Shown here: positions 7,194 through 9,614 of the stretch, piece by piece
Layout of the letters: each line of letters opens with the position of its first letter
Position numbering within the stretch: position 1 is the stretch's first letter
Assembly (NCBI GenBank): GCA_024644465.1
Contig: JAHEKY010000025.1
Span: forward strand, 1-33,072
Direction of reading: 5' to 3'
Source of the DNA: Ilumatobacteraceae bacterium
GTDB taxonomy: Bacteria > Actinomycetota > Acidimicrobiia > Acidimicrobiales > Ilumatobacteraceae
DNA: 33,072 nucleotides
Notes under the pieces: generated by a model
Seen by the model: the letters and a program-made list of their open reading frames with translations, nothing else
Told to the model about the DNA's origin: nothing
The model's database searches: none
Program-made: the position numbers and the translations under genes

Positions 7194-9614
7194 ATGTCGA
7201 CCACCGCGACCCTCGTCCGCCTGCCGCTCGCCCACCTCCCGGCCGCCGTCCTGCCCGGCGCGACGGTCACGCTCACGCTGAACTCGCCCGATCTCCACCG
7301 CGCGATCGAAGCGGCCACGTCCGATGCCGAGCACGGCTCCGGCGGCCGGATCCTGCTCACCGGCGGTGACGAACACGGCCTCGGTGTCGTCGCGAGCGTG
7401 CCGAACGTCGGCAACCTGCCGTCCGGGGAAGCTGCCGCGATCGTGCGGGTCCAGGCGCGGGCGCGGATCGTCGACATCCACCACCCGAACGGCGACGACG
7501 ACGCCGCCTCCGCCGAGGCCGAGGTGATCACCGACCCGCCGCCGACGCCGCGAGTGCAGGCCGCCGCCCGCGAGTTGCGCGCCACGCTCGATGTGATCGC
7601 ACAACTGCGGCGCTCCCGGCGCCTGCCGGAGATCCTCCGCACGATCGAGGCGCCCGGCGCGCTCGCCGACGCAGTTGCACTGTGGGCGGACTTCGAAGAC
7701 GACGACCGGCTCGTCGTGCTGCGCGCCGTCGACCCGTCCGATCGCGTCGACGCGATCAACTCGTGGGCGCGCAACCACCTCGCCGAACTGCAGGTCGCCG
7801 AGACGATTCGCAACGACGTCAGCGAGGGTGTCGACAAGCAGCAGCGCGAGTACGTGCTGCGCCAGCAGCTGAACGCGATCCGCAAGGAGCTCGGCGAAGG
7901 TGACGACGACGTCGTCGGCGAGTTCCGCACGAAGCTCGACGAGCTGGACGCACCGACGAACGTCAAGGCGGCGATCGCGAAGGAACTCGATCGGTTCGAG
8001 CAGATGAGCGCCCAGTCGCCCGAGCATTCCTGGGTGCGGACGTGGCTCGACCGGATCTTCGAGATGCCGTGGGGTGCGCGCAGCGACGACACGCTCGATC
8101 TCCCGGCGGCGAGAGAGCAGCTCGACGCCGACCACTACGGCCTCGACGACGTCAAGGACCGCATCGTCGAGTTCCTCGCGACGCGCAAGCTGCGCCACGA
8201 GCGCGGCCTCGACGAGCGTCCCGACAAAGTTGTGTCAGACACAACTTTGTCGGGACACGCAGCCGGTGTGCGGTCGGCCAGGGGCGACGGCGCGATCATC
8301 ACGCTCGTCGGCCCGCCCGGCGTCGGCAAGACGAGCCTCGGCGAATCGATCGCCCGGGCGATGGGCCGCTCGTTCGTCCGTGTCGCGCTCGGCGGCATCC
8401 GCGACGAGGCGGAGATCCGTGGCCACCGGCGGACCTACGTCGGTTCGCAGCCGGGCCGCATCGTGCGCGCGCTGCAAGAGGCGGGCACGATGAACCCGGT
8501 GATCCTGCTCGACGAGGTCGACAAGCTGTCGGCCGGCGGCTGGTCGGGAGACCCGACGGCCGCACTGCTCGAAGTCCTCGACCCCGCGCAGAACCACACG
8601 TTTCGCGACCACTACCTCGAAGTCGACCTCGACCTCTCCGAGGTCGTGTTCATCGCGACCGCCAACGTGGCCGACACGATCCCGGCACCGTTGCTCGACC
8701 GGATGGACATCGTGCGGCTCGACGGATACACCGAGGACGAGAAGACGTTCATCGCGAACCGCTACCTGCTGCCCCGCCAGGTCGGACGGGCCGGGCTCAC
8801 GACCGACGAGGTCAGCCTCGCCACCGGCGTCGTCGGCGCGATCATCCGCGGGTACACCCGTGAAGCCGGCGTGCGCTCGCTCGAGCGCGAGCTCGGCCGG
8901 CTCGTACGCAAGGTCGCGGCGAAGGTCGCGACCGGTACGGCGCCGCCGGTGGAGATCGATGTGGACGAGTTGACCGAGTGGATCGGCCGGCCGAAGATCG
9001 TCGACGACATCCCGGAACGCACGACGACGCCCGGCATCGCCACGGGGCTGGCGGTCACCGGCGCCGGCGGTGATGTCCTGTTCGTCGAGACGACCGCGTT
9101 CCCCACGGGCCCCGACACCGAGCCGGGGCTGACCCTCACGGGCCAGCTCGGCGACGTGATGAAGGAGTCGGCACAGATCGCGTTGAACTACGTGCGGTCA
9201 CACGCCGCGGCGCTCGGCGTCGACCCCGCCTCGATGCAGCGCCGCTTCCACGTGCACGTTCCGGCGGGCGCCGTCCCGAAGGACGGCCCGTCCGCGGGCA
9301 TCACGATGACGACCGCGCTCGTCTCGTTGCTCACCGATCGGCCGGTGAAGTCGACGGTCGGGATGACCGGCGAGATCACGCTGCAGGGTCAGGTCCTGCC
9401 GATCGGCGGCGTCAAGCAGAAGGTGCTCGCCGCCCACCGGATGGGCCTCACCGAGATCGTGCTCCCCGCGCGCAACGGCCCGGACCTCGACGACGTGCCC
9501 GAGAACGTCCGCGAGACGATGACGTTCCACCTCGCCGCCACCTACGACGACGTCGCCGCCGCCGCCTTCGCCCAGGGCGCCGGTGCTACATCTGGTGCCA
9601 GGCACCAGATGTAA
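7194..9614 (+). CDS. lon: ATP-dependent Lon protease
   Basis: This 806-residue cytosolic AAA+ serine protease degrades misfolded and regulatory proteins. The order is an N-terminal substrate domain (about 1-190), a linker helix region with QQREYVLRQQLNAIRKELGE, the AAA+ module with Walker A GPPGVGKTS (from residue 373) and Walker B ILLDEVDKL, and the S16 protease domain with catalytic Ser in PKDGPSAG (S700) and Lys in GGVKQK (K743). The spacing of 43 residues between them equals that of E. coli Lon. The ATG at 7194 is chosen from the promoter position. Two oddities stand out. Residues about 342-355 (RPDKVVSDTTLSG) are encoded by a 39-bp palindrome inserted in frame before Walker A. The last residues and the TAA stop lie inside another palindrome. 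A HAIR operator suggests heat-shock control. Confidence 0.96.
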   Translation: MSTTATLVRLPLAHLPAAVLPGATVTLTLNSPDLHRAIEAATSDAEHGSGGRILLTGGDEHGLGVVASVPNVGNLPSGEAAAIVRVQARARIVDIHHPNGDDDAASAEAEVITDPPPTPRVQAAARELRATLDVIAQLRRSRRLPEILRTIEAPGALADAVALWADFEDDDRLVVLRAVDPSDRVDAINSWARNHLAELQVAETIRNDVSEGVDKQQREYVLRQQLNAIRKELGEGDDDVVGEFRTKLDELDAPTNVKAAIAKELDRFEQMSAQSPEHSWVRTWLDRIFEMPWGARSDDTLDLPAAREQLDADHYGLDDVKDRIVEFLATRKLRHERGLDERPDKVVSDTTLSGHAAGVRSARGDGAIITLVGPPGVGKTSLGESIARAMGRSFVRVALGGIRDEAEIRGHRRTYVGSQPGRIVRALQEAGTMNPVILLDEVDKLSAGGWSGDPTAALLEVLDPAQNHTFRDHYLEVDLDLSEVVFIATANVADTIPAPLLDRMDIVRLDGYTEDEKTFIANRYLLPRQVGRAGLTTDEVSLATGVVGAIIRGYTREAGVRSLERELGRLVRKVAAKVATGTAPPVEIDVDELTEWIGRPKIVDDIPERTTTPGIATGLAVTGAGGDVLFVETTAFPTGPDTEPGLTLTGQLGDVMKESAQIALNYVRSHAAALGVDPASMQRRFHVHVPAGAVPKDGPSAGITMTTALVSLLTDRPVKSTVGMTGEITLQGQVLPIGGVKQKVLAAHRMGLTEIVLPARNGPDLDDVPENVRETMTFHLAATYDDVAAAAFAQGAGATSGARHQM
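8218..8256. repeat. 39-bp perfect palindrome inside lon
   Basis: Arms of 19 bases surround a single central A at 8237. The core is GTGTCAGACAC (8232-8242), flanked by AAAGTT/AACTTT and GTCCCGAC/GTCGGGAC. It shares the inner 25 bases with the copy at 4811-4841 apart from the central base. It is 13 codons long and keeps the lon frame open. Both strands read the same peptide, DKVVSDTTLSG. Confidence 0.95.

Follow-up and report, generated by a model that had tools for sequence, protein, structure and literature searches.

A palindromic block within an Ilumatobacter lon gene is probably a REP-like element of a RAYT-like Y1 transposase

The closest described systems are REP and REPIN sequences with their RAYT (TnpA-REP) transposases. 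They resemble the family reported here in having short palindromes dispersed near stop codons, a gene for a Y1 HUH transposase bracketed by inverted copies and one palindrome type per transposase (PMC2817692, PMC3116915, PMC6006769). From Actinobacteridae, PMC6006769 reports only RAYT subclass 1.1. The TIRYT/TIRtron group (PMC3733652) is considered in PMC6006769 to be equivalent to RAYT subclass 2.1; PMC3733652 reports for the former that some TIRs are self-complementary and that there are TIR families of moderate abundance, and PMC6006769 found no REP-like sequences for the latter. Where the REP type beside orthologous RAYTs has changed, Nunvar 2013 (PMC3686654) speaks of an orthoswitch and supposes that old copies remain and decay. 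Against this background, a block within lon of an Ilumatobacter genome is very probably a REP-like element of a RAYT-like Y1 (HUH) transposase that has spread genome-wide and been kept in frame; orthologous copies appear to have been replaced in place.

The window, 33,072 nucleotides of DNA, comes from a genome of the genus Ilumatobacter (G000) and contains a full-length lon gene (Table 1). The first-pass annotation had described a perfect 39-bp palindrome lying in frame within lon, and this was borne out. The arms (8218-8236 and 8238-8256) are 19 bp each, 100% complementary and separated by 1 nt (19+1+19), and the lon frame is open throughout, coding for 819 aa (start GTG 7155) or 806 aa (start ATG 7194) with the domains LON_substr_bdg, AAA, Lon_lid and Lon_C. 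The GPSAG and KVLAA regions hold the protease Ser and Lys. Given the base composition of the window and loops of 0-4, the chance expectation for palindromes of this kind in 33 kb is about 1e-5. RNA folding agreed with the earlier expectation of a very stable hairpin in the lon mRNA (-44.5 kcal/mol over 81 nt, z -4.84).

Table 1. Coordinates of lon and of the palindromes in the window.
Feature	Position	Strand	Remarks
lon (ATP-dependent protease)	7155..9614	+	likely start ATG 7194; full length; GPPGVGKT, GPSAG (711) and KVLAA (756) regions
39-bp perfect palindrome in lon	8218..8256	.	center 8237 (A on + strand)
33-bp family element CCGACAAAGTTGTGTC-A-GACACAACTTTGTCGG	8221..8253	.	family boundary near ±15/16; removal gives the G004/G005 linker length
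Second family copy	4811..4841	.	between two minus-strand genes, just past stop codon
Third family copy, imperfect arms	20463..20495	.	core 20474-20484; between two minus-strand genes; ends are center ±16
Second palindrome family, copy CATCTGGTGCC-W-GGCACCAGATG	9587..9613	.	overlaps lon stop codon

A search with the core GTGTCTGACAC returned 95 matches in the window's genome and none in a reversed control. The family consensus is CAAAGTTGTGTC-W-GACACAACTTTG with a G-W-C foot, and the unit measures about 31-33 bp around a single central W. At the family threshold of at least 20 of 24 arm positions, 85 of the 95 copies are members and 10 core matches fall below; 52 match exactly. Arm pairing exceeds expectation out to about ±16, and at ±13 A-T and T-A pairs alternate with covariation (0.78 paired vs 0.41 expected). 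The outermost three pairs of the lon palindrome extend past this consensus. Two more copies lie in the window, one of them around 20479. In GTDB r220 a single contig, from Ilumatobacter sp. SS_bin_52, contained the family 25-mer, the window's own genome being possibly outside that collection. A search of Rfam gave one tRNA. Close pairs of copies, 11-53 nt apart, are inverted (A-center then T-center) in 6 of 7 cases, like REPIN doublets; they lie on contigs C46, C92, C129, C140, C151 and C189, the C129 pair consisting of the core alone. A chance palindrome in lon was rejected, since its core is the same as in tens of other copies.

The Pfam family PF01797 gave 19 matches in 10 of 40 genomes, of which 15 distinct RAYT loci were examined. 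The window's genome has one match (G000:C125:8371-8694), located between two inverted family copies; other RAYTs may be missing because this genome is 83% complete. Inverted copies around a cognate RAYT, as in canonical REP systems, were seen at this locus and at five more: one palindrome type stands on both sides at 6 of the 15 loci (G000, G001, G006 twice, G007 and G016), always with an A-center on the left and a T-center on the right. Paired palindromes are missing at 9 of the 15. At the G002 locus and at three more loci of G006 a hairpin stands on just one side, and no flanking palindrome was found at the G004 and G038 loci. The RAYTs of G003 and G005 (L044, L046), of a related type, have in place of a palindrome a non-palindromic inverted repeat with GGGGTCAG and GGGGTCAGGCCCCTTTCGCAAC. 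A third G001 palindrome type, AGGTGTC-W-GACACCT, with 8-bp arms, lies downstream of a second RAYT that is cut by a contig end (L047 G001:C47, L133).

Four palindrome-flanked transposases, 275-286 aa long, were scanned. All passed the PF01797 cut-off, the window's own barely (23.8 vs 23), and the RAYT alignment shows the NHFH/NHYH and Y-x-H/N-x-N motifs of an HUH enzyme with a catalytic Tyr. Unlike described RAYTs, they fell under the cut-off of the NCBIfam RAYT model NF047646 (50.7-56.4 bits vs 80, E 3e-15 to 1.7e-13). No Pfam HTH was detected in the four at E up to 0.1; Sigma70_r4_2 was found in one of three other RAYTs scanned. A search for a solved relative of the transposase gave one chance match (E 0.83).

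The palindromes flanking these genes were counted over 11 genomes. GTTGTGTCTGACACAAC occurs 70 times in G000 and twice in G001, and GTTGTGCCTGGCACAAC 87 times in G001 and at least once in G000. For GGTTTGTCTCTGAGACAAACC there are 30 exact copies in G006 and none elsewhere even at 2 mismatches, while ATCSGGTGTCTGACACCSGAT has 25 copies in G006, 67 in G007 and none elsewhere. GATAGTGCCTGGCACTATC has 48 exact copies in G016, with a single 2-mismatch match in G001. RAYT-flanking palindromes are abundant only in their own genome or, for one type, in two genomes, which is cognate specificity. The core GTGTCTGACAC has 34 matches in G001, only 2 of them belonging to the lon-palindrome family by 17-mer; the 5 matches in fetched G001 DNA are these 2 and 3 of the third type beside the second RAYT fragment. 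The two closest pairs of full-length, palindrome-flanked RAYTs from different genomes (G000-G001, 68%; G006-G007, 50%) have similar palindromes. At least 21 G007 contigs start no more than about 20 nt from a copy of a palindrome, as though the hairpins had interrupted assembly.

As with canonical REPs, the copies number in the tens to hundreds, are dispersed and lie mainly outside genes. The family differs from REP/RAYT systems in its perfect stem, its one-base center and the lack of a GTAG tag. The column composition at ±13 to ±30 of 85 copies contains no GT[AG]G at the hairpin foot; a mostly paired CGWC is found there. CGTC-tagged REPs have an unpaired CGTC end, a loop of 4-5 and no transposase, whereas here CGTC/CGAC is mostly paired, the center is one base and a transposase is present. 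TIRYTs (PMC3733652) share the NH[FY]H and Y-x-H-x-N motifs and flanking inverted repeats, and the GGGGTCAG TIR of the G003 and G005 RAYTs fits their motif GGGGWSAS. Unlike in TIRYTs, the repeats beside the gene here are perfectly palindromic and recur tens of times at dispersed sites, and the C-terminal HTH of TIRYT/subclass 2.1 was not recognized by Pfam in the four palindrome-flanked proteins. Rickettsia palindromic elements and intragenic REPs, also described in PMC3733652, likewise place palindromes in frame in genes for known proteins; they differ from the present family, which has a cognate transposase, uses a symmetric frame and is mainly extragenic. The element is of a known kind, intragenic REP-like and RAYT-cognate, in a divergent, untagged form.

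Alignment of lon with relatives, the test set by the first-pass annotation, showed the palindrome block to be absent from all 18 other orthologues, so it is not conserved in all relatives. The linker up to GPPG has 35 residues here and 24 in G004 and G005, an excess of 11 rather than the roughly 20 first suggested. Nor is a short linker the norm, as had been assumed: its length is hypervariable, spanning 17-94 residues among 16 further orthologues measurable by pattern, and exceeds that of the window in 5 of 18 relatives. The inserted unit, originally taken as 39 bp or 13 codons, is best placed as 33 bp (8221-8253), which adds 11 codons and is read with the flanking bases as PDKVVSDTTLSG. Its exact removal leaves GLDERRHAAGVRSARGDG, of the same length as GLDARVDADGERSARGQG (G005) and GLDARIDADGERTVRGHG (G004). 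After this removal the lon alignment score rose for 12 of the 18 orthologues, fell for 5 (with long linkers) and was equal for 1. Of the bacterial Lon chains of solved structure, the two displayed in the alignment lack such an insert.

The idea of an inserted element tolerated in frame is supported by the 85-95 genome copies, by the 18 orthologues without the block and by the fit of the in silico deletion. Native Lon sequence that is palindromic by chance would suit a linker of such variable length, but the probability of this reading is close to nil and it was rejected: the core is the same as in tens of other copies, is absent from the other orthologues, and the palindrome family contradicts it. 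The lon copy shows a REP-like element tolerated in a core protease, and Lon with the 11-residue insert presumably still works. Around lon, both neighbors adjoin the gene in 5 of 9 relative loci (G002, G005, G006, G008, G022), one does in 3, and none in G016. The sister genome G001 has lost lon from a contig that is syntenic on both sides (L230, G001:C109 11362-11557 vs window 6983-9632), and because of this it is uninformative on the lon block. Elsewhere the Lon linker is expanded by unrelated, partly repeated sequence (L026, L023, L015, L014, L018), up to 94 residues in G006.

Gene context was taken from a home-made gene caller with search patterns that differ from the 95-match core count, hence 85 copies in G000: 36 are in gaps between tandem genes, 34 in convergent and 6 in divergent gaps, 8 inside called genes and 1 at an edge. 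The corresponding numbers for 86 of the 91 G001 copies (five at contig ends were left out) are 46 tandem, 29 convergent, 3 divergent and 8 intragenic, and for 40 analyzed copies, a part of the second G006 family, 18, 16, 6 and 0. Copies strongly avoid genes, given that called genes make up 0.88-0.91 of the fetched DNA. Stop codons lie within 20 nt of the palindrome center in 55 of 105 cases in G000, 62 of 104 in G001 and 24 of 50 in G006. This proximity, the predominance of convergent and tandem gaps and the stable RNA hairpin are what would be expected if the palindromes were bidirectional terminators or mRNA 3' stabilizers under selection, with RAYT proximity coincidental and the lon copy accidental. 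That explanation is improbable, as 25-mers identical at 52 loci require copying rather than independent hairpin selection, each family is tied to genomes whose RAYT has family copies as flanks, and a terminator within lon should be harmful. There is no T-run past the stem, and a terminator scan of 4500-10000 gave one site, elsewhere (6782). An intrinsic terminator as the sole explanation was rejected. Termination may be a by-product of a transposase-spread element.

Among the element's six frames, one contains a stop and three contain cysteine; the remaining two, one per strand, give DKVVSDTTLS. Both orientations encode this peptide because the central base falls on the third position of a codon. 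This symmetric frame is used in lon, in an AMP-binding enzyme (L052), in a carotenoid synthesis protein (L118) and in two C-terminal tails. Called intragenic copies are in it in 7 of 8 cases in G000 and 7 of 8 in G001, or 12 of 14 with two shared loci counted once (p 8e-5 vs 1/3; 6e-4 vs 2/5); 10 of the 16 copies lie at gene ends, where gene calls are uncertain. All 6 internal copies use the symmetric frame; they occupy 4 loci, one of which (L115) was called divergent intergenic in another calling. For the copies in the AMP-binding enzyme and carotenoid protein no clean empty site was found: G000 and G001 share them, and the loops vary in length among relatives.

Flanks of the G000 copies were compared with those of fetched G001 copies, sought by a pattern open to both types. 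Among 31 reciprocal best pairs, positions -2/+2 are T..A in G000 and C..G in G001 in 28, T..A in both in 2, and T..A vs C..A in 1; the G001 version has CC/GG in place of TC/GA beside the center. The center is the same in 19 pairs and flipped in 12. At ±13, agreement between orthologous copies equals that of random pairs (0.44 vs 0.44, sd 0.07), and at ±15, 16 and 17 it lies above random (0.60/0.48, 0.40/0.29, 0.45/0.27). The middle ~29 bp thus keeps no memory of the locus, whereas its surroundings do. The copies inside the AMP-binding enzyme and the carotenoid synthesis protein are present in both genomes and read SD in one and PG in the other at the differing residues. As in the orthoswitch described in PMC3686654, orthologous RAYTs in related genomes have different flanking palindrome types; unlike there, where old copies decay, 28 of the 31 orthologous copies themselves differ in type.

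The same sites could instead bind a sequence-specific protein, with T.A vs C.G at ±2 reflecting site-by-site selection for a changed protein and the copies left unreplaced. Perfect symmetry, a nearly invariant core and the joint difference of both arms at 28 of 31 loci would fit, and fast mutation may have erased the memory at ±13. The random-level agreement there despite 72-92% identity of the aligned loci, and the 12 flipped centers, are nevertheless better explained by whole-unit replacement, and selection on binding sites is considered unlikely.

Alternatively, orthologous sites may have been hit independently in each lineage as target hot spots, with no replacement. Gaps past stop codons are indeed strongly preferred, and 9 of the 31 pairs match on neither flank within 3 nt. 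Against this, the distance agrees within 3 nt on both flanks in 8 pairs (6 of the 8 switched) and on at least one flank in 22, and the two intragenic copies named above are shared. Moreover, in 315 kb of G001 contigs, selected for carrying copies, 6 of 8 placeable G000 copies have a counterpart, one of them degenerate. Independent hits are accordingly rated as a poor prospect. The other two placeable copies are L077, beside a different palindrome, and L108, for which a copy is probably absent from G001, through gain or loss. The sole GTGTC core in the 315 kb belongs outside the lon-palindrome family. Replacement in place of orthologous copies, intragenic ones too, by the current family type (concerted evolution) is the reading suggested by these alignments.

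In the proposed course of events, copies would have spread through the genome, chiefly into gaps just past stop codons, and one would have entered the length-variable Lon linker between the N-terminal part and the AAA+ P-loop. Its persistence may be due to its length of 33 nt, which leaves the frame intact, and to that frame being the palindrome-symmetric one, DKVVSDTTLS, with neither stop nor cysteine. The RAYT would cleave the single-stranded hairpin and move or rewrite copies; mobility and mechanism are inferred. Counted against this are the missing GTAG tag, the sub-cut-off RAYT scores, the 9 of 15 unpaired loci and the lack of any target duplication or transposition event. Target duplications, which the first-pass annotation had proposed to look for, were not apparent: 3-nt direct repeats at the element ends (12-19 nt from the center) were not in excess over shuffled pairs.

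An even chance is given to a broader proposal, that the RAYT-like transposase updates the whole family in place as its preferred palindrome changes, old-site and in-frame copies included, and that intragenic copies are kept in the frame of least harm. If so, unrelated proteins would change the same residues together, as in the SD vs PG difference of the AMP-binding enzyme and carotenoid synthesis protein between G000 and G001. This pair of genomes offers a direct test of how REP type changes, by in-place replacement or by spread and decay. Among the best matches of a search with partial literature coverage, no report was recognized of REP copies evolving in concert at orthologous loci. The literature search found no paper joining Ilumatobacter with palindromic elements and a transposase, and neither PMC3733652 nor PMC6006769 mentions the name in its main text. 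The present results place in this genus a REP/RAYT-type system whose palindromes are perfect and untagged, with cognate specificity genome by genome.

A second palindrome family is represented at the lon stop codon (Table 1). None of the 19 PF01797 matches in the 40 genomes was found to be its RAYT. The family has 28 exact copies in G000 and 6 in G001, forward matches at up to 2 mismatches number 43 and 19, respectively, and each of nine other genomes has at most one copy.
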